Assembly: GCF_014334095.1 (NCBI RefSeq) | Contig: NZ_CP060495.1 | Location: forward strand, 2,255,001 to 2,319,000 | DNA length: 64,000 bases | From: Novosphingopyxis iocasae | GTDB lineage: Bacteria > Pseudomonadota > Alphaproteobacteria > Sphingomonadales > Sphingomonadaceae | Direction: 5' to 3' | Shown: positions 47,758-64,000 of the stretch, one piece after another | Layout: each line of letters begins with the position of its first letter | Numbering within the stretch: position 1 is the first letter of the stretch | Translations under genes and position numbers: made by a program | The notes under the pieces: model-generated | Seen by the model: the letters and a program-made list of their open reading frames with translations, nothing else | The model's database searches: none | Told to the model about the DNA's origin: nothing

Positions 47758-48842
47758 CACCCTCCGGCATGACGCGCGATCGGATCTGCGTGATCCCGGG
47801 GGAAGACGCCGCTGCCGAAGCGGTTATGCACGTTCTTGCCGTGTTGAAGGCACTCGATACCGGTCTCGACTGGCATGTGTGCGAGAACACGTCCACTATC
47901 GGAGAGGACGGCCGGCCGCAGCTGGCTGCCGAAGCGAAAGCGGCGATCGACAGCAGCCGGGCAACGCTGTTCGGGGCCACCGGTGGGCCCAATTCCGCCG
48001 CGCTGTTTTATCTACGCTGGGGCAAGCAGACCTTTGCCAATGTTCGCCCCACGCGGTGGAGCGAGGGCATGCCGAGCCCGCTGGCCAAGCCCGAGGGCAT
48101 CGATCTCGCGATCGTGCGGGAAAACCTCGAAGATGCCTATGTCCTGATCGAAGGCGATCTGCCGCAGCTCGCCCCGCTGAAGCTCAGGAGCCGCACCGCC
48201 GGGATCGGCCCGGAAGCGATGGGCGAGGGGGCATTTTCGGTAAAGGCGATCACCCGCGAAGGCTCGCTCCGCGTCGCGCGCTTTGCCTTCGAACTTGCGC
48301 GCCAGCGCAAGGCCGCAGGCGGCGCGGGGCGGGTGACGGCGAGTGCGAAATACAACATGCAGCCGCGCACCGATGGCCTGTTCATCGAGTGTGCTAACGA
48401 GGTCGCGAACGACTTTCCCGATATCGACTTCGACGTTCTGATCGTGGACGATTGCGCCCACCGGATCGTGCGCGATCCGCAGCGCTTCGACGTGCTGTTA
48501 TTGCCCAATCTCTACGGCGATATCCTGTCCGACGCGGCGGCGGGATTGACCGGCGGTCTCGGGCTGGCGGCAAGCGGCTGTTACGGCGCGGATTACGCCT
48601 ATTTCGAGTCCGCGCACGGCACCGCCCCCGATATTGCGGGCAAGGGCATCGTGAACCCCGTCGCCACACTGCTGTCCGCTGCGATGCTGCTCGACTATTG
48701 CGACCGTGCGCTGATTGCAGCCTCGCTGCGCAAAGCGATCGACCGTCTGCATGAAGACGGCCGCGTCCTGACGCCCGATGTCGGCGGCATCGCCTCGACC
48801 GCGCAGGTCTGCGATGCCGTATTGGAGCATATGCAGATATGA
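47754..48842 (+). CDS. Isocitrate/isopropylmalate dehydrogenase family protein (LeuB/IDH-like)
   Basis: A 362-residue NAD-dependent beta-decarboxylating dehydrogenase. ATLFGATGGP, the VRENLEDAYVLIEG loop, ASAKYNMQPRTDGLF (catalytic Lys region), NLYGDILSDAAAGLTGGLG and ESAHGTAPDIAGKGIVNP are family motifs. Details (VDDCAHRIVRDPQRFDVLLLPNLYGD) look closer to NAD-isocitrate or tartrate dehydrogenases than to true LeuB, so the substrate is probably another 2-substituted 3-hydroxy acid. GTG start at 47754 overlaps the monooxygenase-hydrolase stop; ATG at residue 6 is also possible. Its stop overlaps the leuC-like start. Confidence 0.88.
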   Translation: MTPSGMTRDRICVIPGEDAAAEAVMHVLAVLKALDTGLDWHVCENTSTIGEDGRPQLAAEAKAAIDSSRATLFGATGGPNSAALFYLRWGKQTFANVRPTRWSEGMPSPLAKPEGIDLAIVRENLEDAYVLIEGDLPQLAPLKLRSRTAGIGPEAMGEGAFSVKAITREGSLRVARFAFELARQRKAAGGAGRVTASAKYNMQPRTDGLFIECANEVANDFPDIDFDVLIVDDCAHRIVRDPQRFDVLLLPNLYGDILSDAAAGLTGGLGLAASGCYGADYAYFESAHGTAPDIAGKGIVNPVATLLSAAMLLDYCDRALIAASLRKAIDRLHEDGRVLTPDVGGIASTAQVCDAVLEHMQI

Positions 48843-50239
48843 CGATGGACCAGAGCCTGTTCGAGAAACTCTGGGCGCTCCACCGGGTCGAGGTACTCGA
48901 AGGCGCCCGCGATCTGATCGCTATCGACCTGCATCTGCTCCACGACTTGAGTGGCCCCGGCGCGCTCAATGCGCTGAAGAAGCGTGGCATGGCCGTCGCC
49001 GCGCCCGGACAGACCTTTGCCGTTCCCGATCATGGTGTCGGGACCATGCCCGGGCGCGGGGACGACAGCAGCGAGGCGAGCCGCAAGACGCTGCAACCGC
49101 TGCGGCGCCTGTGCGCGGACATGGGCGTCACGCTGTTCGACCTCGACTCCGAAGAACAGGGGATCGTGCATGTGATCGGCCCGGAACAGGGGCTGACGCT
49201 GCCCGGGCTCTCGATTGTGTGCGGCGACAGCCATACCTGCACGCAAGGTGCCTTCGGTGCGCTCGCATGGGGAATCGGATCGACCGAGATACTCCAGGTG
49301 CTCGCCACGCAGATGCTGATCCTCGAAAAGCCGAAATCGATGCGCGTGACGATCGACGGCACGCTGGCGGACGATGTCGATGCGAAGGATCTGATCCTTG
49401 CGATCATCGGTCGCTGGAGCGCGGAAGGCGGGGCGGGTCACGTGATCGAATTCGCCGGGTCGGCGGTGCGGGCGCTCGGCATGGAAGCGCGGATGACGCT
49501 GTGCAATCTGGCGGTCGAATTCGGCGCGCGCTTCGGATTGATCGCGCCCGACGAGACGACCTTCGATTACCTGCGTGGCCGTCCTTTCGCGCCGCGAGGC
49601 GATGCTTGGGATACCGCGCTTTCGCACTGGCGCACGCTGCCCTCTGATCCCGACGCTCGCTTCGATGCGGAACTGCATCTCGATGCAAACGACGTCGTGC
49701 CGCACATCACCTGGGGCGTATCGCTCGATCAGGTTGCGCCTGTCACCGGAGCAATTCCCGAGGAGCCAAGCGATGCAGCGGGCGCCAAGGCCCACCGCCA
49801 AGCGCTGGATTATATGGGACTGGAAGCGGGCAGCAGGATCGCATCGACCCCGATCGACCGCGTCTTCATCGGTTCTTGCGCGAATGGAAGGCTGTCCGAT
49901 CTCGAGCGGGCAGCGCAGGTCGTCGCCGGGCGGCGTGTCGCAGACGGGGTCGAGGCGTGGGTTGTTCCGGGATCGCGGTCCGTAAATCGCGCTGCTCAGG
50001 AGCGCGGTCTCGATGCCGTATTTCGCGAGGCGGGCTTCGAGTGGCGCGAGCCGGGCTGTTCGATGTGCTTGGCGATGAACGGCGATCAGGTCGCCAGAGG
50101 AGAGCGCTGCGTATCCACCTCGAACCGCAACTTCGTCGGGCGGCAGGGGCCGGGCGCCCGAACGCACGTCACCGGTCCCGCGGTCGCGGCAGCCAGCGCG
50201 ATATTGGGACGCATCGGCACGCCGGGAGAGCTGGCATGA
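48839..50239 (+). CDS. LeuC-like aconitase-family dehydratase, large subunit
   Basis: A 466-residue [4Fe-4S] hydro-lyase subunit. CGDSHTCTQGAFGALAWGIGSTE, the cluster cysteine in GSCANGRLSDLERAA, and CSMCLAMNGD near the C-terminus give the three cluster ligands. Length equals 3-isopropylmalate dehydratase large subunit. It is paired with a LeuD-like subunit directly downstream and a dehydrogenase upstream. No isopropylmalate synthase is in the cluster, so a leucine-pathway role is doubtful and another 2-alkylmalate-type substrate is plausible. ATGA overlaps at both ends. Confidence 0.9.
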   Translation: MTMDQSLFEKLWALHRVEVLEGARDLIAIDLHLLHDLSGPGALNALKKRGMAVAAPGQTFAVPDHGVGTMPGRGDDSSEASRKTLQPLRRLCADMGVTLFDLDSEEQGIVHVIGPEQGLTLPGLSIVCGDSHTCTQGAFGALAWGIGSTEILQVLATQMLILEKPKSMRVTIDGTLADDVDAKDLILAIIGRWSAEGGAGHVIEFAGSAVRALGMEARMTLCNLAVEFGARFGLIAPDETTFDYLRGRPFAPRGDAWDTALSHWRTLPSDPDARFDAELHLDANDVVPHITWGVSLDQVAPVTGAIPEEPSDAAGAKAHRQALDYMGLEAGSRIASTPIDRVFIGSCANGRLSDLERAAQVVAGRRVADGVEAWVVPGSRSVNRAAQERGLDAVFREAGFEWREPGCSMCLAMNGDQVARGERCVSTSNRNFVGRQGPGARTHVTGPAVAAASAILGRIGTPGELA

Positions 50240-50853
50240 ACGAGGCATACCCACCTGTGCTGGATTCGCTGGCGGTGGTTCTCCGGCTCGAGAATGTCGA
50301 CACCGACGTCATCACGCCCATCGGTCGCGTGCTGGAAGGGCCGCAGGCGATCGTCGACTATGCGTTCGAACCGCTGCGCTTTGCCGATGACGGCACCAGG
50401 CGCGCCGACGATCCCTTCGCCGACCCCGATCGGCAAAATGCGCAGATCCTGATCGCCGGGCGCAATTTCGGTTGCGGCAGCAGCCGCGAGACGGCGGCGC
50501 AGGCGATCAGGGGCATGGGCTTTCGCTGCGTCATCGCGCCCAGCTTCGGCGATATCTTCTACTCGAACTGCCTGAAGAACGGCGTGCTCGCCATCGCGCT
50601 CAGCAGCCGGGAGGTCGAGCGGATCATGGACTCGGCGGACGAGCTTTCGCGGATCGTCGTGAGGCTGCCCGAACAGCGGATCGAGCTGGACGGGCATGTC
50701 GCCCAGTTCGAAATCGACCCCCTATCGAAGCGCATGCTCCTGGGCGGGATAGACGAGATCGGTTTACTGCAAGGTTACGCGGAAGCGAAGGCGGACTTCG
50801 ATCGCGCAGATGCGGCGGCGCGGCCGTGGGTCCGCCCCCGCAAGCGCAAATAA
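50236..50853 (+). CDS. LeuD-like aconitase-family dehydratase, small subunit
   Basis: A 205-residue swivel-domain subunit partnering the LeuC-like protein. It has NVDTDVITPIGRVL (LeuD usually has NVDTDQIIP), GRNFGCGSSRETAAQAI (substrate loop), and the FGDIFYSNCLKNGVLAI segment. The start at 50236 is set by an ATGA overlap with the leuC-like stop. It is the last gene of the tight operon. The DNA composition changes just beyond its stop codon. Confidence 0.9.
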   Translation: MNEAYPPVLDSLAVVLRLENVDTDVITPIGRVLEGPQAIVDYAFEPLRFADDGTRRADDPFADPDRQNAQILIAGRNFGCGSSRETAAQAIRGMGFRCVIAPSFGDIFYSNCLKNGVLAIALSSREVERIMDSADELSRIVVRLPEQRIELDGHVAQFEIDPLSKRMLLGGIDEIGLLQGYAEAKADFDRADAAARPWVRPRKRK

Positions 50854-51131
50854 CAATTTCCCCAGGTTTTTCCAGCAAACCGGAATGGCAACGCAGCTTT
50901 CATTTCATGGCGAGCGACCATGTGGGTGTCTGTTTGCTTATCTCCAGCCATGGAAAGGCGGAAGCGGTGTCCGATGCACAGCGCGACGAATCCTTGCGCT
51001 TCTAAGGCCACCAGAATGCCGGCAAGCATGGCGGCTGTTATCTGAAAACCCCCAAGAAACAGCACGCTTAATCCAATTTGAATAGCTAGATATTCTTTTG
51101 ATCGAAAGGCTGCAACCTCCGGAAACCAGCA
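50854..51131. other. Gene-poor junction between core-like DNA and the accessory region
   Basis: The 278 bases after the leuD-like gene hold no convincing gene. A minus-strand frame (51065 to about 50850, beginning MLFLGGFQITAAMLAGILVALEAQ) has a hydrophobic N-terminus but runs into the leuD-like gene and cannot be assigned; it may be a decayed gene end. GC content starts to fall here. No tRNA, integrase or direct repeat was found. Confidence 0.5.
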
Positions 51132-51542
51132 TTATTCCGCGATCTGTTGCGCGAAGTGTGCTTCAGTCTTCAGCTTGCACCGGCCTGATTGCTCCAGTGA
51201 CTTAACGACCGATTGCCCGGCCACTGTTGAGAATTGTTGAGGTGCACGCAAGTAGTCACCTCTCGCCGCTGGAGTTCGCATAAAGCGCCGCGCCTTTTGA
51301 GGAACGGTTAGGGGAACCGGTGCGCGAACTAGGGAGAAATCAATACGATCAAAGCCAAATGGCGGACACGGAGGGATTCGCTCCAAGCCCCCAGGTCGTT
51401 CGGAATATTGCTTTTCTGCTATCCACTCGTCGTCAGATACCCCCAGGGATACCCCGTTTTTGTTAAAATCGAACTCAATGTCCTGAGCGAGTGATTTACG
51501 TGCGACAGTTGAGTACCATGAGAAGGTAGCTTTGCACCCCAA
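51132..51542 (-). CDS. Hypothetical protein
   Basis: A 136-residue frame starting with TTG at 51542 and without a clear ribosome binding site. The sequence (DIEFDFNKNGVSLGVSDDEWIAEKQYSERPGG...PPFGFDRIDFSLVRAPVPLTVPQKARRF) looks protein-like and soluble but matches no family I recognise. Base composition is lower in GC than the genes to the left. It is oriented away from the methylase-mcrBC operon. It may be a fragment or a genuine accessory gene. Confidence 0.35.
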   Translation of the reverse strand: MGCKATFSWYSTVARKSLAQDIEFDFNKNGVSLGVSDDEWIAEKQYSERPGGLERIPPCPPFGFDRIDFSLVRAPVPLTVPQKARRFMRTPAARGDYLRAPQQFSTVAGQSVVKSLEQSGRCKLKTEAHFAQQIAE

Positions 51543-51723
51543 TTTCGGTCATTCCAAACCCATCAAAGCCTTCCCGAGAGCAGTCTTCGTATCGCCGGCT
51601 TAGATGGGGCTGTTTGGATTAATTGGCAATCGGGAGCTTGCGCTACCTGCAGAAAAATCAGCATGCTATTTGGATTCGAACTCCCCGTCGGCTAACCCGG
51701 TCGGCACAGATTGATGGGGCATC

Positions 51724-52785
51724 ATGGCGATCGAGTATATCGGCAACAAAGCGCAGCTTGTAGATCGTATGTGGGAGTGCATGCGCGGACACCTTCGTGA
51801 AAAGCCAAAGGGGTTTGCAGACTTATTTTGCGGCACTGCGTCCGTTAGCCAGTTCATGCGCGCTCGCGGCTTCCGGGTGACCGCCAACGATAGCTTGCTG
51901 CTCTGCTCGACGTTCGCAGAAGCGGCCTTGCTGACAGAAATTCCGCCGAGCTTTGTCGGGCTTGCTCAGGCGGGTGTGCTGGTAGCTCCTCCGAAATGCC
52001 GCTACGCGGAACTGCTTAGGATTCTCAATGGCCTTTCTCCGGTCGAAGGATTCATGTTTAGAACCTATTCGCCAGCCTCCCTTCGCCATGGGGCCAACGA
52101 AGCGAGAATGTACTTTACCGAGGAAAATAGCGGTAGGCTGGATGCGATGCGCCATCAGATTGCGCAGTGGCGTCCCGATATCACGACGGCAGAGCACGCA
52201 CTTCTTCTTGTCGATCTCGTCAAGGCCGCGAACCGAGTTAGCAATATTGCCGGGACTTACGGCTGTTATCTTAAGGACTGGAAAACCCGAGCCCTGCAGT
52301 CCGTCGTGGTGACAGAGAGCAGACTCTCGTTCAGCGGCCCGAGGGGCGAAGTCTTTCGTCAGGATGCGCTTGACCTTGTGCAAAAGGTCGAAGCCGAGGT
52401 CATTTACGCTGATCCGCCATATACTAAGCGTCAATACGCGGCCTACTACCATCTTCTTGAGACCCTGGTTGCCGGAGATGAGCCGAAGGTGACCGGTTCC
52501 ACGGGACTCAGGCCATGGGAGCACGCGGCTTCGGATTTCTGTTATCGGCGCAAAGCGCCTGGTGCGCTTCGCGACCTGGTCCTCAACTTGAAAGAGGGCT
52601 CGGACTTCTTCCTAAGCTACAATGAAGACGGACAGATACATCACGACGAGATCGTCAAAATCCTTAGCGAGCGCGGCAAAGTTACTGTGAACGAATTCGC
52701 ATTGCGCCGCTACAAGAGCAGTAACCTGCCGCATAAAGGCCGCCAAGTTGCGGAGCGCCTCTACCACGTTAAAGCGAGCGCGTAA
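51724..52785 (+). CDS. D12-class DNA adenine methyltransferase (Dam-like)
   Basis: A 353-residue N6-adenine DNA methyltransferase. MAIEYIGNKAQLVDRMW is the D12 N-terminus, FADLFCGTASVSQFMR is SAM motif I, and VIYADPPYTKRQY is the catalytic DPPY motif IV. The long central part between them is the target recognition region. It begins the defence operon; its TAA stop is two bases before the mcrB start. In this context it probably protects host DNA from the McrBC-type nuclease next door, an inference from gene order. Confidence 0.9.
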   Translation: MAIEYIGNKAQLVDRMWECMRGHLREKPKGFADLFCGTASVSQFMRARGFRVTANDSLLLCSTFAEAALLTEIPPSFVGLAQAGVLVAPPKCRYAELLRILNGLSPVEGFMFRTYSPASLRHGANEARMYFTEENSGRLDAMRHQIAQWRPDITTAEHALLLVDLVKAANRVSNIAGTYGCYLKDWKTRALQSVVVTESRLSFSGPRGEVFRQDALDLVQKVEAEVIYADPPYTKRQYAAYYHLLETLVAGDEPKVTGSTGLRPWEHAASDFCYRRKAPGALRDLVLNLKEGSDFFLSYNEDGQIHHDEIVKILSERGKVTVNEFALRRYKSSNLPHKGRQVAERLYHVKASA

Positions 52786-52787
52786 CA

Positions 52788-54428
52788 ATGGCCCTTGTAG
52801 CTATCGATGCTATTCTTTGGCGACGTCTTCAACAGGCTAACTATGATAGTTTAGACGGGGTGTCGGCGGGGCAATATGATATTCGCCTCGGACGCGACGA
52901 TGATGTGGCGACTTTTTTCGATGGGGTCCCCCAGCTCAACCCAACCAATTTGGGCGGGTACGATTTAAAAGTACCTATTGCGGCCTTCGATGGGGCAAGT
53001 CCGGTTCCCCAGGCGGAGCTTCGCGTACGTTTTATGGGGCCGCGATCACAGCGAAAAGACTGGAACATCCCATCGCAGCGGCCTGACACGGCCTATCCGC
53101 TCTGGCGCCTAAGCCGCAGCAGTCCAAACCGGTCGACCGAAAACTTTGTGATTATTGCTCGGGATGTGCTCGGACGTTTTCACGCGCGGTGGTTGGATGC
53201 GGCGGCTGTGGCTGCCCTACCAGAGCAAATCCGGAAGGCATTACGTTCTCAGAAGAATATGGGGGTTGAGTTCATGGCTGTCACTCAGCACGCGGAAGAG
53301 GCTGTCCGCATCTCGGACAAGCTTCTCGCCAGTCACAACGTCCTCCTTTACGGGCCGCCGGGGACGGGCAAGAGTCACTTGATGTGGGAAACCGCAAAGG
53401 CGTTCGGGCGTGATCCGGTGCAGATAGACACCGCCGATGAAGCCCAACCGCTCAAAGGAGGTGGTGCGGCGCTGGACCCTATCGTGCGCTGGGTAACTTT
53501 CCATCAGACCTACGGTTACGAGGACTTCATCATCGGCCTGAGACCCGATCCGTCCTCGGTGCAGGCGCTGAGTCTCAAGGCATTTCCGGGGATTTTGCTC
53601 GAGCTTGCCGAAGTGGCGCGCGCGACCGGCCGGCCCGCCGTCCTTCTGATCGACGAGATCAATCGCGGCAACGTGTCGCGCATCTTCGGCGAGTTCATTA
53701 CGCTGCTGGAACCGGACAAGCGCCTGGGCGGCGATGGAAATGAGACAGAGACGACTGTTCCAATCAGTCTTCCCTATGTCGATGCCGACACCGTGGTCAG
53801 TGTCGATGGACAAGACCTGCCCGTCCTAAAGCGATTTGTTCTGCCCGCTAACATTTACCTGTTGGCCAGCATGAACTCGGTGGACCGTTCCGTCGCCCCC
53901 CTCGATGCGGCCCTTCGACGTCGGTTCCGGATCGTGAACCTCGATCCTGACTTGGAGGCGCTCCAGGCAGAATTCGCACGGCGGCCTCCGACGGGCAGCG
54001 CAGAGGACGTAGCGGAGGTAGTTAGGCTCCGGACCCTCGCCACAGACCTGCTTTCTCATCTCAACGAGGGCATCTCGGCCTTTCGTGGGCCGGACTATCG
54101 GCTTGGGCAGTGGTATCTCGCCGACTTGCTCAAGGCGACCAACCAAGCTGACGCTCGCTCGGTCTTGGTCGGAATCTGGGAAGAGAAGCTTCAGCCGCAT
54201 CTAGAAGACGTCTTCCACGGACGCGTCGAGCAGCTCGCGGCCCTGATCGGGGAAGACGGACCGATCCGCCTTTCGGACCCCCCGTCCAACTACGAAAGCG
54301 CAGGCGCTCGGCCATTCGTCAACCGCAAGCTGCTCTCACCGGAGCAGACGTTGGCCTTTTTGGAGCGGCTGACCTCGGCGGCGCCGAATGCGCCGACCGG
54401 CGCGCCGGCCTCGAATTCAGCTCCGTGA
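52788..54428 (+). CDS. mcrB: McrB-like AAA+ restriction GTPase
   Basis: A 546-residue motor subunit. An N-terminal domain of about 150 residues (putative DNA recognition, no EVE or DUF3578 signature recognised) precedes a McrB-type AAA+ domain with Walker A YGPPGTGKSHL (about 189-196), Walker B VLLIDEINRGNVSRIFGE (about 285-300) and LLASMNSVDRSVAPLDAALRRRF, the McrB MNxxDRS GTPase motif with arginine finger. It would drive translocation with the McrC nuclease encoded next. It ends within the start of mcrC. Confidence 0.92.
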   Translation: MALVAIDAILWRRLQQANYDSLDGVSAGQYDIRLGRDDDVATFFDGVPQLNPTNLGGYDLKVPIAAFDGASPVPQAELRVRFMGPRSQRKDWNIPSQRPDTAYPLWRLSRSSPNRSTENFVIIARDVLGRFHARWLDAAAVAALPEQIRKALRSQKNMGVEFMAVTQHAEEAVRISDKLLASHNVLLYGPPGTGKSHLMWETAKAFGRDPVQIDTADEAQPLKGGGAALDPIVRWVTFHQTYGYEDFIIGLRPDPSSVQALSLKAFPGILLELAEVARATGRPAVLLIDEINRGNVSRIFGEFITLLEPDKRLGGDGNETETTVPISLPYVDADTVVSVDGQDLPVLKRFVLPANIYLLASMNSVDRSVAPLDAALRRRFRIVNLDPDLEALQAEFARRPPTGSAEDVAEVVRLRTLATDLLSHLNEGISAFRGPDYRLGQWYLADLLKATNQADARSVLVGIWEEKLQPHLEDVFHGRVEQLAALIGEDGPIRLSDPPSNYESAGARPFVNRKLLSPEQTLAFLERLTSAAPNAPTGAPASNSAP

Positions 54429-55782
54429 TCGCAAATTGACTGACGTAATCCTTCGCGAGGGGCAGCGGGTCAGGCTGTTCGACATCCTGCCTGCCGGAGT
54501 TTCGCAGTCGACTGCAATGGCGGAGGCTGCCAGCAAGAGTCAGAAACTGAAGAATGCTCTCAATCTGCGCGCCGGGCCGCTCAGCCTGGTCTACGAGGGC
54601 AGCACGCTGGTCCTTCAAATCACTGGAATTGTCGGTTCGCTCCGCCTTTTCGGAGTGCGGGTCGAGATCCTTCCAAAGTTCGGAGACGACAGGAGCTGGC
54701 ACGACAACGTCATGATGTTGCTGGCTCGCGCTCATGGCGCCAAGTTCGACCTGCAGGAGCTTCGAGGAACCGATCGCGACCGGCTAAGCTTCGTCGATCA
54801 CGTCGCCCAAGCCTTCTCGACAGCGCTGGACGCGGGCCTGCTCGACGGACCCATCGAGACATACCGGGACATTATGTATCGGGCACCCGTCGCGAAGGGA
54901 CGAATCGACATTTCCCGGACGGTGACGGCGGCCCTTTGCTCTCCCGGCACGATCGTCTCTTGGACAAGCGAGCTGGATGCGGACAATCCCTACAACCGCG
55001 TACTCCACGCCGCGGCGGACATCCTATTGAGGCTCGTAACAAACCGGGATGTCCGCGCCGCGCTTCAGCGATCAAGGGACGAGCTCCCCCCCTTGCCGCA
55101 GGGGCTCCCACCGCCGGTCCGCTGGCCGGACCGGCCTCCGCTGCAGTTCGTTGGCTACGCAGAAGCGCTGGAGATAGCTTCGGCGGTTCTTCAAGGGCGA
55201 GACTGGGGAATCGGTCCAGCGGCGAGCACCGCTTTCGGCTATGTCGTCGGGATGGAGAAGCTGTTCGAGAAATTTGTGGAGAGTAGCTTGCGGCAGGCGG
55301 TCAAATTGTTGCCCTTATCATTGGAAGCCTCCGCACGAAGTCAGGCAAGGACTTTATTCGCGCAGCCGGAGACGCCGGGGCGCAAGGCCTATTTCACAAC
55401 ACCGGACAATGTGGTGGATGTAGGAGGCCGTCCGACCATCATCGTAGATGCCAAATATAAGCGTTTCGCCGATGCCGAAACGGGCGATGCCAGACGGCCA
55501 TCCAACGCCGACGTGTATCAGATGTTCGCGTCTATGGCGGCCCAGGGGTGCCGAGTGGCTCTCCTCATATACCCTTCGTCCGTCGACCTTGCCGGTCCCC
55601 CGCCCACCTGGCGAATGAAAGTTGGCAAGGAGGATGCTTTCGTCGTGGCGGCCGGAATTCCCATTTCCGATCTTCGGACTAGTGCGGACCTGAATTCTGT
55701 GGATCTGGCGCTGGCGCAACAGTGTCTGCATCTCCTTACGCTCGTAAACGAATATGATGGAGCCCCCGTGAATGTCGCGTGA
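54388..55782 (+). CDS. mcrC: McrC-like restriction nuclease subunit
   Basis: A 464-residue nuclease partner of McrB. The N-terminal McrC barrel contains LRLFGVRVEILPKFGDD. The C-terminal PD-(D/E)xK nuclease has VDVGGRPTIIVDAKYKRFAD, giving the Asp and DAKYK catalytic core, with the preceding helix Glu in FEKFVESSLR. The start at 54388 overlaps mcrB by 41 bases; a TTG at 54436 (LTDVILREGQRVRLFD) would remove the Arg-rich leader and fits the McrC N-terminus well. Its 3' end overlaps the next methyltransferase gene by 11 bases. Confidence 0.9.
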   Translation: MRRPARRPRIQLRDRKLTDVILREGQRVRLFDILPAGVSQSTAMAEAASKSQKLKNALNLRAGPLSLVYEGSTLVLQITGIVGSLRLFGVRVEILPKFGDDRSWHDNVMMLLARAHGAKFDLQELRGTDRDRLSFVDHVAQAFSTALDAGLLDGPIETYRDIMYRAPVAKGRIDISRTVTAALCSPGTIVSWTSELDADNPYNRVLHAAADILLRLVTNRDVRAALQRSRDELPPLPQGLPPPVRWPDRPPLQFVGYAEALEIASAVLQGRDWGIGPAASTAFGYVVGMEKLFEKFVESSLRQAVKLLPLSLEASARSQARTLFAQPETPGRKAYFTTPDNVVDVGGRPTIIVDAKYKRFADAETGDARRPSNADVYQMFASMAAQGCRVALLIYPSSVDLAGPPPTWRMKVGKEDAFVVAAGIPISDLRTSADLNSVDLALAQQCLHLLTLVNEYDGAPVNVA

Positions 55783-58264
55783 GGTCTGCGATCTTGGATC
55801 GATCTGGCGCTGGCTGGCTGTCGAGCACTTCAGGCTCGCCGTTGGAGAAAAGCCCGGCGCACCCGGAGAAATGTCAGAGCTTTTCCGGCTTTGCGTCACT
55901 CGCTCGTTCTACGCGCTGGCGAAGGCAATGTGCGATAAATCCGCAAGAATAACCATCAGCCGCGGCTTGAGCCAAGTCGTGGCGATAGATGGCGCGGCGC
56001 TTTGTCGACTCATCCCGGAGGCGGCGGCGATTGCCTCCGGGAAACTGCTTGAGGAGGAGCTCAGCGCCAAGGTCGGCGCATTGCTGGCAGAGTCTGTCTT
56101 AGAGCCGGCCTCGTTCGGTGACGCTTTCGAGAGCCTATACGGCGATATCCCTAATGCGGACGTGCAAAGCGGCTCGCGCGCAACGCGCGATCGCAATACC
56201 CGGGGTGTTTTCTATACTCCGGCGGCCCTCGTCGAGGAGTTATGCGACCAGGCTCTGACGCCCGCGCTCGATGGCTTTCATTCGATTGAGTCCCTCTCCG
56301 GTCTCGCGGTGCTGGATCCCGCGATGGGCGGTGGACGATTTCTGATCGAGGCTGCACAGAGAATCGCCGCTAGGGCTGAGTTGCTAGAGCCCGGTGACCA
56401 GGCGAACGGGAGAAAGATCGCCCTCACCTCCCTTTACGGGGTCGACCGCGACGCCTTGGCCGTCGACGTTGCCAGGCTTTCCCTCTGGCTCGCTGGCGGT
56501 GCGGAAGCGGATGTGGTCGGCATGCTTCGCCGACATTTTATCCATGGCGACTCCATCGCCGGTCCCGCCGGAAGCTCTTCGGATTCGGGGACGAATTTTG
56601 ACGGAACTCACCAAGAAGAACTCGATTGGGCGAGGACTTTCCCGGGGATCCTTGGCCGAGATCGACCGGGCTTTGACCTAGTGATTGGCAATCCGCCTTG
56701 GGGTAAGATCAAGGCCGAGTATAAGCGCTTTCTTACGGCCTCCGTAGGCGCAGCCAGTCAGTTGCAAGGTGCGCAGCTGCGCCGGTATGTTCAGACCCTT
56801 CCTGAAGGAAATTTACGCCGGCACGCCACGACCGAATGGGAGGATCACTCGTCGGCGGTAAAGGCCTATGCGGAGAGGCTAAAATGCCGCTTCGCTGGCA
56901 ACGATGAAATTTCCGGGCGCGGCGACGCGGACCTATACAAATATTTCATGGCCAGGAGTCTGCAGCTAACCCGCGAAGGCGGCACGGTCGCGCTCATTAT
57001 CCCGGCTTCGTTTAGGAATACGGAGGGCACGGCATCTCTTCGGAGAAAGTATTTCGGTTGCGGTCACTTTACCTTTTTTACGGAGAGAACCAATCGCCGG
57101 CGACACTTCCCAATACACTCCATGTTCCGCTTCGTTTCCTTCGTGTTCCGGAAGGATGGGGTGGGCGGCATCGACAACATGCTATTCGTCGACGGTCAAA
57201 AACGCGGCGAGCCAGTGCACATTGGATTGGATGAGTTGCGCGCCGTAGCGGGCGATGATCTGCTAATACCGGAGGTCCGCGATCAGCGGGAATTCGACCT
57301 GCTGAAACGCCTATACGGCGTCTTTGAGCCGCTCGGGTCCCCGGGTCAGTGGAATATCCGCTTTAATCGCGAGGTGGACATGACGAACGCCAGCGCTCAA
57401 TTCATTGAACAGAAGCCGCAAACACAAAGCTCAGGTTTTTTGTATCTACCGTTGTTTGAAGGCCGGATGGTTGACCAGTTCGATTACGCAGCCAAGGAAT
57501 ATATCGGCGGCGCTGGACGAAGGGCACAATGGCGCCGTCTTCTGATGGGAGCCAAGCGGATCCGCCCTCATTATCTTCTTCCGGTCAGATCCACCGACCC
57601 CAAGCTCGAACAGTTCCTTAGCCCGAGAGCGGCCTTCTGCGATATAACCGGCCACGCGAACCGGCGCACTGTGCTGGCTGCTGTCCTTCCGGGCGGGGTT
57701 GCGAGCGGCAACAAGGTTCCCACTTGTCGGTTCGAGCCCGTGAACGATCCGCGCTTTCATCTCCTTTGGGTGGCAATTGCCAATAGCCTCACCGTGAATT
57801 GGCTGGTTCGGCGACGGATTTCTACAACGCTCAATTTCTTTCACCTCTATGCCATTCCGTTTCCAAGGCTCGACCCCAGCGTGCCCGAAGCGAAGCGGCT
57901 CATTCGCCTCGCCGCTTCGCTTGTAAAGATAGATGATGGTCACCTGAGCTTCGCAAGGTGGTTGAAGGATGCCTGCGGCCATGACGCACCAGCCGTCGTC
58001 GACACCTGCGAAAGGCAATCCATCATCGACGAGATAGATAAGGTTGTTTTCGGACTTTATGGTTTGGTTGCGTCAGAAGTGGCGCTGATCAAATCAGATT
58101 TCAAAGATCTCGCCACTCTAGGTTGTGATCCCGAACTACAAAATACCGAGACCAAGTTTGCCAGGCCGCCAAAGGCTGCTGCAGTGCGCAGACAGCAGTC
58201 GCGGCGAAGTGAATTGGGAGGCCGCCGCCGCCGGCTCACGACATCATTCGAAGAACATTCCTGA
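55772..58264 (+). CDS. Eco57I/type IIG-like N6-adenine DNA methyltransferase
   Basis: An 830-residue DNA methyltransferase. TRGVFYTPAALVEELC, motif I VLDPAMGGGRFLIEAA and motif IV LVIGNPPWGKIKAEY identify the gamma-type N6-adenine methylase of the Eco57I/PglX lineage. The C-terminal half (about 450-760) is probably the target recognition domain (FHLLWVAIANSLTVNWLVRRR, FFHLYAIPFPRL). No PD-ExK motif is seen in the N-terminus, unlike bifunctional type IIG enzymes, so cleavage probably relies on McrBC. The last 30 residues are very basic. It is translationally linked to mcrC. Confidence 0.9.
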   Translation: MSREVCDLGSIWRWLAVEHFRLAVGEKPGAPGEMSELFRLCVTRSFYALAKAMCDKSARITISRGLSQVVAIDGAALCRLIPEAAAIASGKLLEEELSAKVGALLAESVLEPASFGDAFESLYGDIPNADVQSGSRATRDRNTRGVFYTPAALVEELCDQALTPALDGFHSIESLSGLAVLDPAMGGGRFLIEAAQRIAARAELLEPGDQANGRKIALTSLYGVDRDALAVDVARLSLWLAGGAEADVVGMLRRHFIHGDSIAGPAGSSSDSGTNFDGTHQEELDWARTFPGILGRDRPGFDLVIGNPPWGKIKAEYKRFLTASVGAASQLQGAQLRRYVQTLPEGNLRRHATTEWEDHSSAVKAYAERLKCRFAGNDEISGRGDADLYKYFMARSLQLTREGGTVALIIPASFRNTEGTASLRRKYFGCGHFTFFTERTNRRRHFPIHSMFRFVSFVFRKDGVGGIDNMLFVDGQKRGEPVHIGLDELRAVAGDDLLIPEVRDQREFDLLKRLYGVFEPLGSPGQWNIRFNREVDMTNASAQFIEQKPQTQSSGFLYLPLFEGRMVDQFDYAAKEYIGGAGRRAQWRRLLMGAKRIRPHYLLPVRSTDPKLEQFLSPRAAFCDITGHANRRTVLAAVLPGGVASGNKVPTCRFEPVNDPRFHLLWVAIANSLTVNWLVRRRISTTLNFFHLYAIPFPRLDPSVPEAKRLIRLAASLVKIDDGHLSFARWLKDACGHDAPAVVDTCERQSIIDEIDKVVFGLYGLVASEVALIKSDFKDLATLGCDPELQNTETKFARPPKAAAVRRQQSRRSELGGRRRRLTTSFEEHS

Positions 58265-58592
58265 TCCGACAAATTGATTGCCGGAATGACAGGTCTTCGC
58301 GCTCAGGTGGACTTAAGCGGACGGTCTCCTATCGACCCATACTCTGCTTGCCGGCAAAGCAGTTTTTTGTGGTCGAGCGTCGTGCCTTTCCACGCCATTA
58401 AATAGCTCAGACGGCTACAGCCGAACTGGCGGCGAGCAGTTAATCTACGCCGCGAGATGTCCCGAATGTTCTTACAACAGACGTAAGTGCGCATTTGCGC
58501 AACCAGGTGCGCATTTGCGCACCTACGTCCAAACATTCCAGGCGTTAAAGCGTTGAGGTCGACAGAAACTCCATCAACCTTCCCGAAGGGAA
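58265..58592. other. Gene-free region between methyltransferase and Rep-like gene
   Basis: These 328 bases hold no convincing gene; a minus-strand frame at 58303-58536 has no features of a real protein. The main structure is the tandem palindrome at 58481-58528, about 65 bases upstream of the Rep-like gene. The region is lower in GC than the operon before it and is a plausible regulatory or origin region of the mobile element. Confidence 0.5.
58481..58528. repeat. Tandem palindromic repeats (iteron or operator candidate)
   Basis: GTGCGCATTTGCGCA occurs twice with a 20-base period (58487-58501 and 58507-58521). The second copy is the core of a perfect 16-base palindrome, GTGCGCA-TT-TGCGCAC (58507-58522). 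The whole block is itself roughly symmetric, flanked by ACGTA (58481-58485) and TACGT (58524-58528). The spacing of about two helical turns and the position upstream of a Rep-like gene suggest iterons or a double operator. Confidence 0.7.
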
Positions 58593-59423
58593 ATGTATAA
58601 CGGGGGCGCAGTGGTGCGGGTTATTGCGCAAGCGATTGAATTAACGTTATATTCAAGCGCAACGGCTATACGCCCCTCTATGCACGCAGGCGCTCAGCAA
58701 CCGTTCGTCGGAAGACAGCCAAAAGGCAACCACATTCGTCCAGAAAGCGCACGGGCTGTTCTGCATGCAGAGCGATACGCTAGAGCGCAACGACGCTTCC
58801 TGAATCTAATGGTTACGGTCGACCTACAGAAGCAACCAGTTTCTGGTAAAACGCCATACGAGATATTCCGTAAGCATTTTTGGGGAAACGCTCGTGCTCG
58901 CTGGAACACGTTAGTGAAGAACGGCAAGGCGAAGGGACCGTTCGATTCGATTGCGGTTTTTGAGAATCCAATGATCAAATCGCAGCGCTTCACACGATCT
59001 TGGGGACCTTACCACGTACATTGGTTTATTCGGTGGCCAACCGAGCATCAGGAGAAGTTCGCATTTCACCTCCGGTCTCAGTTCAGGAAGAGTTTTGGGA
59101 GCTTTAGCCCTTCGAATATTCATCTATTGAAGGTTGATAGCCCCGCGGGTGTCGCAGCTTACTTGGTCAAGGGTATCGATCCGACATATGCCAAGCATTT
59201 TCATATTTGGCATACTCCGCAGGGTAAAATAGACCATCGCCGCATAATCACCAGCATTCCTTTGGGAAGGGCTTCGCAAAAGAGATATCGGTCCTCCGGT
59301 AGGGACCCGCTCCCCCGTCGTTCAAAAGCCGCTAACAAAAGGATATTGGAACAAATCTCGAAAAAGCTTTGCGATCAACCAAATCATCAAAAAGGTCGTC
59401 CCACCGAAGTCTGGCATCCCTGA
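58593..59423 (+). CDS. HUH endonuclease Rep-like protein
   Basis: A 276-residue basic protein. YHVHWFIRW contains an HUH-type metal motif (His141, hydrophobic, His143), and AAYLVKGID carries a Tyr-x-x-Lys motif (Tyr190, Lys193), in the order and spacing of single-tyrosine Rep endonucleases. The protein ends in a basic tail (KRYRSSGRDPLPRRSKAANKR). It could start rolling-circle replication or act at an origin of the mobile element. Family membership rests on these motifs only. Start uncertain: ATG 58593 is too close to GAAGGG, and GTG codons at 58611/58614 or ATG 58680 are alternatives. GC is clearly lower than in the core region. Confidence 0.45.
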   Translation: MYNGGAVVRVIAQAIELTLYSSATAIRPSMHAGAQQPFVGRQPKGNHIRPESARAVLHAERYARAQRRFLNLMVTVDLQKQPVSGKTPYEIFRKHFWGNARARWNTLVKNGKAKGPFDSIAVFENPMIKSQRFTRSWGPYHVHWFIRWPTEHQEKFAFHLRSQFRKSFGSFSPSNIHLLKVDSPAGVAAYLVKGIDPTYAKHFHIWHTPQGKIDHRRIITSIPLGRASQKRYRSSGRDPLPRRSKAANKRILEQISKKLCDQPNHQKGRPTEVWHP

Positions 59424-59887
59424 ACTGAGTGTCGAACTCTCGAGCCCAACGTTCGTACCCCGCTAAGTGAAAAGCCACCATAAGACATCTGTGACGCAAC
59501 TGTTTCAACTGCTGACACTGTGAGGCATGCTAGGGGCCTAACGGTGGATAACTGAGACCATCGCCTAGCGAAGTCAGGTCCGAAGGTTAAGCCTGTGCGT
59601 TTAGTGCCTACACTATGCTCACTCTTTGCTTGGTCATAATACCAACGTTTGGCTGCCTCAGCCTCTAGTTTATTTTGGAAATGGAAGTTTTTTTGTACAT
59701 TTCCCAGTTGGGAAATGTCGAGGATTTGCGCTGTGTTCAGCGCCACGGAACGGCACTTCCCGGTTTTTATACCATTTTTTCTCGCCGGTTCATTTGGGCC
59801 TCTTCTTTTTCCGTCCTAAAACACTTCTGCAGGCAATCTCGCCTCATTCGCACTTCCAAGTGCGGCACAAGGACAAGGACGAAGACG
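59424..59887. other. Gene-free region with inverted repeat before the TraK-like gene
   Basis: These 464 bases contain no convincing gene. A minus-strand frame (59387-59746) is present but shows no motif or ribosome binding site. The region contains the perfect inverted repeat at 59697-59718 and T-rich stretches, and sits between a Rep-like gene and putative relaxosome genes. It is therefore a candidate origin of transfer or promoter-operator region. Confidence 0.45.
59697..59718. repeat. Perfect 10-bp inverted repeat (operator or oriT candidate)
   Basis: ACATTTCCCA (59697-59706) and TGGGAAATGT (59709-59718) form a perfect palindrome around GT, about 170 bases upstream of the TraK-like gene. 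No T run follows, so a terminator is unlikely. A dimer-binding operator or a relaxosome site are both possible. Confidence 0.6.
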
Positions 59888-60205
59888 ATGAGTTTTTCGA
59901 AAAGAGCTACTGACGACACAGGCCCCCGCAAGCACGTACGTAAAGCAGTTCAAGCGCAGCTTGCAGATATCGTGGACGCTATCGATGAAGGGGCATCCAT
60001 CTCGGCGATTTATCGCACCCTCCGTTCGGACGGAGTCGAAGTTGGCGCGGGGCTGAGCAGCTTCCGCTACGCCCTGAAGGCACTGGAAAGCGAGATCGAA
60101 GCGATCAGGGACTCCAAGCGCGCTACAGACGCTGGCAATGCTACCGAGCATTCCTCTGGCCCGTCCAAATTTACCGACAACGAACATTCGTCACGGTGGA
60201 ACTAG
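59888..60205 (+). CDS. TraK-like relaxosome accessory protein
   Basis: A 105-residue protein. RKAVQAQLADIVDAIDEGASISAIYRTLRSDGVEVGAGLSSFRYALKALESEI (about residues 16-68) follows the helix pattern of IncP TraK-type small DNA-binding proteins (an EALxxGxSxxxIWExLxxDGxxxxxxxFxxYL-like motif). A hydrophilic tail follows. Such proteins bind oriT next to the relaxase. The start at 59888 has repeated AAGGAC just upstream. Its stop codon lies two bases before the TraL-like gene. The match is by pattern only. Confidence 0.5.
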   Translation: MSFSKRATDDTGPRKHVRKAVQAQLADIVDAIDEGASISAIYRTLRSDGVEVGAGLSSFRYALKALESEIEAIRDSKRATDAGNATEHSSGPSKFTDNEHSSRWN

Positions 60206-60207
60206 AG

Positions 60208-61086
60208 ATGGACAGCTTTATCAAATCGCTGATTTTCATCATCGTGACCACCAACGCCGGCGGGCAGGCCAAATCCCTGATCGCAGACCTGTGCAAAAGC
60301 CTGTTTCTGATGATGGGCTACGACGTGGCTACGATGGATGCAGATCCAGGCAACAGCACAGCGATACATCTCGATAGTCGCACTGACGGGATAACGTGGG
60401 GGAGCAGAAGGAGCATCGCGTCCACGATCGCTTCCGCTTATGAGGGTAAGCAAATTGTTCTCGATTGCGGCGCGAATATGTGGGCATCAGAGCGCGAGAT
60501 AACGGAGCTCCTTCCCGAGCTCGCTTCTATGCTCGAAGCGGTAGGTTACAGGACCGTTGTGCTTCTGCCCTATACGCCGAACAAGCCACGGGCCGCGGCG
60601 ACGCTGCAGGATCTGGAGCCCCATCTTCCAGGAACGGAAAAGATCTACATCCGATCGAATAGCGACGGATCGGGTGCGTTCGATCCGCTCGATCCAAGCA
60701 AGTCGGTTATCGATCTCGGATACCTCCAGCCTGGTTTTATTCAGCATCTGAATGAAAATGGTCGCAGGTCGTTCTTCGACCTTGTCAGCAATCCTCATCC
60801 GAACCGCGTCCTTGCTAGCAATTATATCGGTCAGTGGATGCACGACTTCGCCGACGCTGCCAGTAAGTACAACCTGTTTGCTGATGCAGTTCCCATGCTC
60901 GCCAAAATCCCAGCTCAACCGAAACTGCGCTTCGGAGTAAACACGCTCGAGCGCTGCACCGACAAAGCCCTTCGCAAAATTCAATCCAAGAGCGTTATCC
61001 TAGATCATATCGATCGATTTGGCTGGGATGAGGCCGGTCTCCTGAAAGCTGCAGCAGCGTTGGCGCAGCGCTCCGACAAAGCATGA
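60208..61086 (+). CDS. TraL/ParA-like P-loop protein with degenerate Walker A
   Basis: A 292-residue protein of the MinD/ParA superfamily as in IncP TraL. The N-terminal hydrophobic strand LIFIIVTTNAGGQAKSLIADL occupies the deviant Walker A position, but the usual GKGGVGKS is NAGGQAKS (residues 16-23), with the signature first lysine lost. ATMDADPGNSTAIH matches the switch I DxDxxN region and IVLDCGANMWAS the Walker B-like strand. Nucleotide binding may be weakened. ATG 60208 is preferred over GTG 60196, which overlaps the TraK-like stop. It is paired with the TraK-like gene. Confidence 0.6.
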   Translation: MDSFIKSLIFIIVTTNAGGQAKSLIADLCKSLFLMMGYDVATMDADPGNSTAIHLDSRTDGITWGSRRSIASTIASAYEGKQIVLDCGANMWASEREITELLPELASMLEAVGYRTVVLLPYTPNKPRAAATLQDLEPHLPGTEKIYIRSNSDGSGAFDPLDPSKSVIDLGYLQPGFIQHLNENGRRSFFDLVSNPHPNRVLASNYIGQWMHDFADAASKYNLFADAVPMLAKIPAQPKLRFGVNTLERCTDKALRKIQSKSVILDHIDRFGWDEAGLLKAAAALAQRSDKA

Positions 61087-61507
61087 ACAGTCTGCAAACA
61101 GGAGATGTCACCATGCGCCCGGTGTTCAACCACTGGGCGCATCGTGTTCACCTACTAGCGCTTACGTTACCGAAGAGTGTCCCATAAATATTCATCCGGT
61201 AGCTTTGACAATGGGTAGACACAATCCAGTCTAATGTATGCATTTACCTATTTAACTGTTCTAACAATGTTTTTAGGCGCAATACCGCTAATGTGGCGTG
61301 GCCACATTAGCTTGCTTTTGAATTAGATTAATTTTTGGTATCAGAAGATCGACATCGTACGAACAATGCTCACGCATAGTTCACGCACTGATAGCTCCTT
61401 GTTCGCCAGCAGTATATTTAGGATGGACTTTGACCTAACCCAATTCCTTTAACTTTCTACTTTGAGGGCCATAGCAATCGGCGCTATATTCGCGGTAGGA
61501 GATGAAG
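61087..61507. other. AT-rich gene-free region before the relaxase (candidate oriT)
   Basis: These 421 bases between the TraL-like gene and the relaxase hold no gene. They are the most AT-rich stretch in the window. They contain the perfect 11-bp inverted repeat at 61287-61311, followed by TTGCTTTTG. An origin of transfer is commonly located beside a relaxase gene, so this is the best oriT candidate here. Confidence 0.5.
61287..61311. repeat. Perfect 11-bp inverted repeat (oriT hairpin or terminator)
   Basis: GCTAATGTGGC (61287-61297) and GCCACATTAGC (61301-61311) flank a three-base loop. The downstream TTGCTTTTG is only moderately T-rich, so termination of the TraK-TraL transcript is possible, but a relaxosome hairpin near a nick site is at least as likely. 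Confidence 0.65.
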
Positions 61508-64000
61508 ATGCCTACCAATCGCCAGATGGAAATCCAGGCCGAATATGAAGCGGCCCGTATCAAGTTCAATTTGATCCGCGAAGGTATTTTGACCGAGGTC
61601 GATGGCTCGTCCATTTCACATGGGAGAAAGTCTCGCCCGTTGCTTTTCGATACCCTTGGAAAGAAGCCGGCACGGACGCCTCAGTTCAATATTCCGGCGA
61701 CGCGGCGTCGACGCCTGATGTCATCGTCGGGAGCCACATCATTTCATTTCGCTCACAAAGGCATTGCCAAGGTCCTGTTTGAGGTCCGGCGCGATAATGT
61801 GCGCAACCTGCCAGGGGCAGCGAGGGGACACAGTCGATATATAGAACGTGAATGCGCTGTGGCCGATCTCGAGAGCAAGGATCGTTCGAAGGACGTTAAT
61901 CTCCTTGATAGCGAAGATGATAAGGCGCGATGCGTAACCGCGGCTCAAGACGAATATCTCGCCCGCCCCTCTGCCTTGGCAATGCAACCTGACGGTCAGC
62001 GAGCACTCATTACCAACATCGATCCGGATGACGATGAGCGAGCACATTTCTGGTCTCTGGTCGAAGCTCACGAACGCAGGCCAGGCCCGGATATGATGAC
62101 GGTACATCCCTGTCAAAATCCAGAGTTCTGGCAGAAAGTTGCTATCAGTCCAGCCTGCCCTACAGAGCTACGCACCAAGCTCGACGGGCCTACCGCCAAT
62201 GACGGGAAGGCTTTCAAGATCGGAAACGGCAAGACCGTGCGTGCCTTCTTGCGCAAACAAGAAGGCTGGTCCGAACCTAGACATGGGGCGAGGACCGATG
62301 AAAAATCACCGCCCTTAGCAACATTTGCCGATGGCCGGGGCGGCCGGGTTCAGTATCGCATTGAGTTCGAACTTCCAGAGGAACTGTCGCCGCAGCAAAA
62401 CTTCGAGCTTCTCCGCGAATTCTGTGGCGAAATGGAAAGCCGCAAAATTCCATTCGTGGCGGTGATGCATGCGCCGGACCATCATAACCATGATGCAAAC
62501 TGGCATGCACACATTGCCTATTATGATCGACCGTGCCGAAAGATAGAACGTAGCGACATCGAAGGCTTGGCAGAAAAAGGCTACGACACCGCGCAGTTAA
62601 GCCCTGGCATGTGGGATTTTGCCGTTACGCTGCCTGTACCTGGCCGTAGCAACCGTAACGTATCTCCGCTGCGACAGAAAAAAGTCGCCGAAGTCAGCCG
62701 AACGCAGACCTGGCCGAAGAAACTGCGCGTGCGCCTGGCAGAGATCACTAATGGCCACCTCGATCGCGCGGGAATTCAGCGTAGCGTCGACGCCGGTACT
62801 TTTGCGGACATGGGTATCGTGGCGGTTCCGCAGGAACATCTCGGCACTCGAACGAACGCCGCAGAAACGCAAGGACAGGCAACCAAGACCGGCGTCGCAA
62901 ATGAAGAGAAGCAATGGCAGGCCGTGCAGGCCGAAGCCGAGGCGCTTCACCTGCAGCTGATGTATCAGGCTGAGGGTCGGATCGATGGATGCGCTGCGCG
63001 CATGAAGAACGCACCCAGCAAAGATAGCGTTAGCGTTGAGACCCTCCGCAGCGAACTCGCTCAGTCTGCTCTCCTCAGGAAGCAAATATTTCTCCTTGAA
63101 CAAGAAATCTATCGAGCTGCTTCCCGAGCTTTCATGGTTCGTCAACGTAATGAAAAGCTGCAGCGAGCATACGAGGCGAAGGAAGAAACGGCCAATCTGA
63201 GGGCGCATAATCAGGCAGAAGCACTGGTTGAAGAAGCGTCGGCGTATCTTCAGCGCCTCGACAATTACCTATCCGAAGAAAAAGCACTGCTTTTGCAATG
63301 GCGAGCAGAGGCAGATCAATGCGAGGCCAATTCAAGGGCTATTGAGCAGTCACTGGGCAAGCAATCTCCGCCCGAAAACCTTGTTGCGCCCAGACTGCAG
63401 CCAGAAAATATCAAACGCTTCGGCGAAGACGCGCCGAAGTCTCATGACAGGCCAGTCTCGCGCGCGAATTTTTCCTCGAGAATCGAAAACGCAAACAGGA
63501 AGGATAGACAAAGGTCAGCGGTCGAGGCGCTCCCTGATCAATCTCCTCTCGCTATATCTGAGGATAAGCCGCTCAGCGGACACAATGCGCCCGGTTTCGT
63601 CAAAATCGATAGCGTAGAAAGTCCGCAACGCTCTACGGTCAAACAAGCCAAAACTGCAAATCGTGCCGCTTCAGCCGCCCCTCCGATGAGGACGCGCGCT
63701 CCAGTACCAAAACGAAAAGTCGCGACATCGAAGGCGACGGCTACCGCTGAGCAAAAGCGTCCAACGAGTTTCCCTCTTAGTTACCGCATCGAACGCTTCG
63801 TTTGGCGTATGGGCGAATATCGCTGCGAACTCGAAATGGATGATCGGAACGTCGTTTTGCCAGTGACCCAGAATATCGAGCGTTGGGGATTAACCTATGA
63901 CGACGTCAAATCTTCGAGCTGTCAGCAACCTCTCCGTGCGCAGTATATCCATTTTGAAAAAGCATGGGACTTGTACGAGTCCGACGCGCGCATTCACGCG
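61508..64000 (+). CDS. MobA/MobL family relaxase (3' partial)
   Basis: An open frame of 831 codons running off the window. AGGAG (61497-61501) is six bases before ATG 61508, which is chosen over ATG 61502. Residues about 265-345 carry a MobA/MobL relaxase segment: VQYRIEFELPEELSPQQNF, then HAPDHHNHDANWHAHIAYYDRP with His321, His333 and His335 as the metal-binding HUH triad. Tyr111 in HSRYIERE is a candidate nicking tyrosine. A long coiled coil (about 470-610) and a charged linker rich in Lys, Ser and Pro follow, then the start of a C-terminal globular part (SYRIERFVWRMGEYRCELE). It would nick oriT to start conjugative mobilisation. Confidence 0.8.
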   Translation, partial: MPTNRQMEIQAEYEAARIKFNLIREGILTEVDGSSISHGRKSRPLLFDTLGKKPARTPQFNIPATRRRRLMSSSGATSFHFAHKGIAKVLFEVRRDNVRNLPGAARGHSRYIERECAVADLESKDRSKDVNLLDSEDDKARCVTAAQDEYLARPSALAMQPDGQRALITNIDPDDDERAHFWSLVEAHERRPGPDMMTVHPCQNPEFWQKVAISPACPTELRTKLDGPTANDGKAFKIGNGKTVRAFLRKQEGWSEPRHGARTDEKSPPLATFADGRGGRVQYRIEFELPEELSPQQNFELLREFCGEMESRKIPFVAVMHAPDHHNHDANWHAHIAYYDRPCRKIERSDIEGLAEKGYDTAQLSPGMWDFAVTLPVPGRSNRNVSPLRQKKVAEVSRTQTWPKKLRVRLAEITNGHLDRAGIQRSVDAGTFADMGIVAVPQEHLGTRTNAAETQGQATKTGVANEEKQWQAVQAEAEALHLQLMYQAEGRIDGCAARMKNAPSKDSVSVETLRSELAQSALLRKQIFLLEQEIYRAASRAFMVRQRNEKLQRAYEAKEETANLRAHNQAEALVEEASAYLQRLDNYLSEEKALLLQWRAEADQCEANSRAIEQSLGKQSPPENLVAPRLQPENIKRFGEDAPKSHDRPVSRANFSSRIENANRKDRQRSAVEALPDQSPLAISEDKPLSGHNAPGFVKIDSVESPQRSTVKQAKTANRAASAAPPMRTRAPVPKRKVATSKATATAEQKRPTSFPLSYRIERFVWRMGEYRCELEMDDRNVVLPVTQNIERWGLTYDDVKSSSCQQPLRAQYIHFEKAWDLYESDARIHA

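Follow-up and report, generated by a model that had tools for sequence, protein, structure and literature searches.

An McrBC-type operon with two adenine methylases in Novosphingopyxis iocasae: a likely restriction-modification system, apparently related to a widespread five-gene cassette

The window, meaning the whole 64,000-nucleotide stretch of Novosphingopyxis iocasae DNA that was analysed, contains four genes in a row on the + strand at 51724-58264, encoding a D12 methylase, McrB, McrC and an Eco57I-type methylase, located where the first-pass annotation had put them. The features are the following.

51724..52785, + strand: D12-class N6-adenine DNA methyltransferase, 353 aa (Pfam MethyltransfD12, E 6.9e-26)
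52788-54428, + strand: McrB (whole), 546 aa (AAA_5, E 3.5e-15)
52788..53282, + strand: McrB N-terminal domain, about 165 aa, unclassified, located where McrB and LlaJI.R1 have their specificity domain
53283..54428, + strand: McrB AAA+ GTPase domain (phmmer to solved McrBs, fold match)
54388..55782, + strand: McrC, nuclease subunit, 464 aa (Pfam McrBC, E 3.3e-37)
55772..58264, + strand: Eco57I-type gamma-class N6-adenine DNA methyltransferase, 830 aa (Pfam Eco57I, E 3.6e-19; N6_Mtase, 1.6e-8)

The tight packing claimed for these genes was confirmed by measurement, with junctions of +2 bp (D12/McrB), -41 bp (McrB/McrC) and -11 bp (McrC/Eco57I-type methylase). This spacing suggests co-transcription of the four genes; a promoter and terminator scan of the operon gave nothing above the shuffled level. 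All four reading frames are of full length, and the catalytic motifs are intact in all four proteins. The D12 methylase carries motif I as FADLFCGTA and motif IV as DPPY (at about 52411-52422), the stretch DPPYTKRQY being kept in 24 of the 24 sequences tested, and PADLOC calls it MTase_II. In the Eco57I-type methylase motif I reads DPAMGGGRFL and motif IV is NPPW (at about 56690-56701), and no nuclease domain was recognised in its 830 residues. Pfam assigns both enzymes to N6-adenine classes and not to the 5-methylcytosine methylases. A BREX or DISARM reading of the Eco57I-type methylase was rejected, its likeness to PglX/DrmMI being that of the common methylase domain only; none of the core genes PglZ, BrxC or DrmABC was found nearby, either in the window or in the annotated loci of the cassette described below.

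The PD-(D/E)xK residues of McrC, identified by alignment and a motif table, are PD (aa 339-340) and DAKYK (aa 354-358). McrB shows the expected GTPase motifs, namely Walker A GPPGTGKS (about 53352-53375), Walker B IDEINRGN and the NxxD signature MNSVDRS (about 53871-53891). Its best solved relatives in phmmer are the McrBs of T. gammatolerans (6ut3, 4.2e-27) and E. coli (6hz4, 1.5e-22), and by fold the GTPase part matches TgMcrB with a Z of 26.1 over 311 residues (rmsd 3.6). In the structural model the GTPase part is good and the N-terminal part is mostly under pLDDT 50. The N-terminal domain has no Pfam or PDB sequence match, and relatives of it were found neither in plasmids, phages and viral contigs nor in about 700 sampled genomes. 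Three weak matches from the genome scan lie in unrelated ORFs and were discarded as chance.

Our search with profiles of the five proteins concerned revealed a full homologous set in 28 other loci, distributed over at least four phyla that include Pseudomonadota, Actinomycetota, Bacillota and Thermodesulfobacteriota. These loci were reached by tblastn of the Eco57I-type methylase against plasmids and by a scan of 84,980 genomes. Their gene order is D12 methylase, Eco57I-type methylase, a small protein of about 190 aa, McrB and McrC. The carriers comprise Citrobacter, Enterobacter, Kluyvera, Pseudomonas, Acetobacter, Sphingobium, Alteraurantiacibacter, Microbulbifer, Zwartia and Bauldia, as well as a Desulfuromonadales MAG, Pimelobacter, Aeromicrobium, Rhodoglobus, Paenibacillus and several proviral contigs. 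Conjugative elements, plasmids and proviral contigs carry the cassette, which sits among genes of integrating conjugative elements in Citrobacter and in E. coli CFSAN051542. It is present in 5 of 5,426 complete E. coli genomes, and a literature search on these E. coli carriers returned nothing relevant. As a control, the window McrB alone was used as query and led to 60 viral-contig loci, none of which holds both methylases. Given this and the 28 loci with the full set, chance adjacency is excluded for the group.

The co-conservation of the methylases with McrBC, on which the first-pass annotation had made its reading depend, thus exists. With respect to its idea that the same four genes might recur in the same order, the homologous set does recur, but the order in the window differs from that of all 28 relatives. 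Judging from gene order, the sandwiching of McrBC between the methylases is a local rearrangement, the usual arrangement placing both methylases first.

A few variants of the cassette were also observed. One proviral contig (L189, 5346-9414) has a one-methylase version, consisting of D12, a diverged small protein, McrB and McrC with no second methylase nearby. In three loci (L037, L076 and L025) McrC is interrupted or frameshifted and D12 is intact, a pattern expected if restriction decays before modification. In Pimelobacter (L024, 10928-11689) a gene with an endonuclease VII domain follows the cassette and overlaps McrC by a few bases.

Phylogenetic analysis was performed for the individual proteins. 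In a tree of 107 rows, the Eco57I-type methylase of the window is sister to the cassette clade (SH-aLRT 99), and the window groups with the cassette in the trees of McrB (support 99) and McrC (98). When McrB and McrC were concatenated and plasmid McrBCs were added, the window and the cassette together split from 37 other McrBC pairs with 100/100 support. The McrB and McrC trees have no root, with a long branch for the window, and identity to the McrB and McrC of the cassette is only about 24-33%. The D12 methylase of the window falls in the same subfamily as those of the cassette (97/94); its placement as their specific sister was dropped, as the D12s of HNH systems are nearer to the cassette than the window is. 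These sequence comparisons indicate that the window is an outlying, rearranged relative of the five-gene cassette.

Pfam gave no consistent match for the small protein of the cassette, and no PDB entry matched it by sequence. The structural model of this protein is of high quality (pLDDT 89.1, pTM 0.86), and the closest folds are the recognition domain of BfiI (Z 8.8, 150 residues, rmsd 4.5), the B3 domain of UbaLAI (Z 7.6) and EcoRII-N (Z 6.7). The first 20 rows of structure matches are all B3-type domains, with plant B3 domains among the neighbours, and the Foldseek E-values are weak (0.085 at best). On this modelled fold, the small protein is confidently predicted to be a B3-type DNA-recognition domain. 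Restriction enzymes use such domains to read specific sites. The presence of such a recognition protein in the relatives is as expected for a Type II and not for a Type IV McrBC. A B3-type recognition domain has also been reported in H. pylori LlaJI.R1 (PMC12707154).

In the window the 165-residue N-terminal domain of McrB stands in for the separate small gene. Direct homology between this domain and the small protein was not upheld, an independent profile having scored it at the shuffle level; an earlier match to a small-protein profile was discounted as circular, because that profile contained the window sequence. The small-protein profile also missed the N-termini of LlaJI.R1 type, and its negative result on the window domain therefore says little. 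It is conceivable, though we hold it to be rather doubtful, that the specificity domain reading the site in the window belongs to a new family, or even has a new fold, and replaced the B3-type protein of the cassette, so that the McrBC engine would have been re-targeted by a one-domain swap with the same adenine methylase pair kept.

We consider it likely that the window encodes a restriction-modification system of Type II (Type IIS-like) akin to LlaI, LlaJI and BsuMI, in which a McrBC-type GTP-driven nuclease attacks unmodified sites. LlaI, BsuMI, LlaJI and their homologues form a McrBC-related Type II family that cuts unmethylated DNA and includes Type IIS methylase pairs (PMC2614495). The window shares with this family a McrB-type GTPase with Walker motifs and NxxD, a McrC with PD-(D/E)xK, and operon methylases that appear cognate and co-inherited, being co-conserved in the 28 loci; as for the recognition domain, it is B3-like in the small protein of the relatives, while in the window the N-terminal model has low confidence and the small-protein profile remains at the shuffle level. 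The operon most likely forms a mobile restriction system of bacteria directed against unmarked invading DNA.

In such a system, each of the two adenine methylases would methylate and protect one strand of one asymmetric site, and the N-terminal domain of McrB would bind the site when unmethylated. GTP would drive the assembly of the McrB hexamer with McrC and subsequently translocation on DNA, and McrC would cut; by analogy with McrBC, the cuts would probably fall some way from the site. A precedent is LlaJI, in which R1 binds LlaJI sites specifically and R2 carries the predicted nuclease centre (PMC1459862). Related D12 methylases also serve as half of an adenine methylase pair beside unrelated nucleases (HNH and others), a reuse that fits the notion of two methylases for the two strands of one site. 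For example, Rhodobacterales plasmids combine D12 with an Eco57I/TaqI-type methylase and an HNH protein, and Psychrobacter and Bartonella pair a related D12 with a Dam-type methylase. Related long D12 proteins lie beside FokI-type nucleases, and D12 is related to the fused two-domain methylases of FokI type. Compared with the window, the FokI-type and HNH-type loci (L114, L115, L210, L211) likewise have D12 as half of an adenine methylase pair, the partner in L210 and L211 being another Eco57I/TaqI-type methylase, but their nuclease is FokI-like or HNH and not McrBC.

Among known systems, LlaJI (Lactococcus pNP40; also seen on pDRC3B, locus L195) resembles the window in having four genes in one operon, with two methylases, a McrB-like R1 with an N-terminal recognition part and a McrC-like R2, and it restricts unmethylated DNA at an asymmetric site. 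It differs in that both methylases are cytosine methylases, in its order (M, M, R1, R2 versus M, R1, R2, M in the window) and in its McrB, a distant long branch not near that of the window. BsuMI is likewise a cytosine system. LlaI (Lactococcus pTR2030), which was compared by description, has like the window a McrB-like GTPase in an operon with an adenine methylase. In LlaI this methylase is one FokI-like protein of two domains, whereas the window has two separate methylases of two classes. A reference title in PMC3990576 calls the LlaI enzyme a 'type II A methylase', and LlaI has three restriction ORFs (PMC1459862), which recalls the cassette, where the small protein, McrB and McrC are encoded separately. 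BsuMI and PcaI also have McrBC-like restriction enzymes with methylases and cut unmodified DNA (PMC2614495, PMC8989522), PcaI with a Dcm-type cytosine methylase and a CCNGG site (PMC8989522). In the LlaJI family, the E. coli plasmid pTE_T100_3 (NZ_MW574942.1) carries, like the window, a pair of adenine methylases next to genes of McrB and McrC type; however, both are D12 methylases distant from that of the window, and the restriction genes are on the opposite strand. A mixed pair was observed on an L. plantarum plasmid (L196, 1344-9234), where LlaJI-type restriction genes accompany one cytosine and one Eco57I-type methylase.

These comparisons bear on two premises of the first-pass annotation. 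It had assumed that McrBC normally stands alone, while a 2024 census considers methylase association to be probably ancestral for McrB GTPases (PMC11090510). It had also held that the known McrBC-type systems with methylases use cytosine methylases, which LlaI and the E. coli plasmid with two D12 methylases contradict. Its proposal of an adenine-type restriction-modification variant is likely right, in view of the co-conservation and of the B3-type recognition protein in the relatives, but its claim to novelty was overstated, since adenine cases are known. In the literature searched, with REBASE and most subscription papers outside the search, we did not find the pairing of D12 and Eco57I-type methylases with McrBC described, although the kind of system itself is known.

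An alternative is that the McrBC of the window is of Type IV, cutting methylated DNA of foreign origin, and lies by chance beside two independent methylases in a defence island. Type IV systems are defined by McrB and McrC, such methylases are absent from most loci of the McrB scan, the block sits at the edge of a low-GC island, and the N-terminal domain of McrB, having no family match, could hold a modified-base reader; Pfam gave no match to DUF3578, SRA, YTH or EVE at this N-terminus, where the model is of low confidence. We nevertheless regard this explanation as improbable. Co-conservation of the full set across phyla is not given by chance clustering, and Type IV systems of the E. coli kind have no cognate methylase, whereas here two are co-conserved with McrBC in the relatives. 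Moreover, the relatives carry a B3-type domain, a fold reading specific unmodified sites as in H. pylori LlaJI.R1 (PMC12707154), and not a YTH, SRA or DUF3578 reader.

It appears very unlikely that the McrBC is m6A-dependent, with the methylases writing m6A for regulation or conflict and the nuclease reading m6A on invaders. The YTH domain of T. gammatolerans McrB does read 6mA (PMC7680126) and both window methylases are of adenine type, but a nuclease that reads marks written by its own operon would be lethal to the host if the motifs did not differ, and Pfam detects no YTH or EVE domain in the window McrB or its relatives, the reader of the cassette being B3-like. A decayed remnant or methylase-only (epigenetic) locus, with a nuclease part that has ceased to work, is brought to mind by the McrC lesions of the three relatives mentioned above, yet it is just as hard to credit given the four full-length frames and intact catalytic motifs of the window.

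Taking the Type II reading, the cassette defines a widespread mobile restriction group that would combine a GTP-driven translocating nuclease with an adenine methylase pair of two classes. Its layout is modular: related D12s recur with nucleases of HNH, FokI and McrBC type, and the module for recognition would be a separate B3-type protein in most copies and the N-terminal part of McrB in the window. Given that m6A is easily seen by long reads, the target sites should be readable from existing methylomes, which is harder for the cytosine-based relatives of LlaJI.

Regarding the surroundings, GC content drops from about 65% to 51-62% over 50500-64000, and the operon looks to be at the edge of an acquired island that extends to the end of the window. 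Downstream, the ORFs at 58593-59423 and 60196-61086 have almost no family match; one downstream ORF has an HxH stretch (YHVHWFI) reminiscent of replication-type proteins and the other is weakly ParA-like. They are possibly parts of an integrated plasmid-like element. On the other side, leuB/leuC/leuD-like genes (47754-50853) adjoin the island, and since part of this region has a second similar place in the same genome, they may be accessory paralogues.
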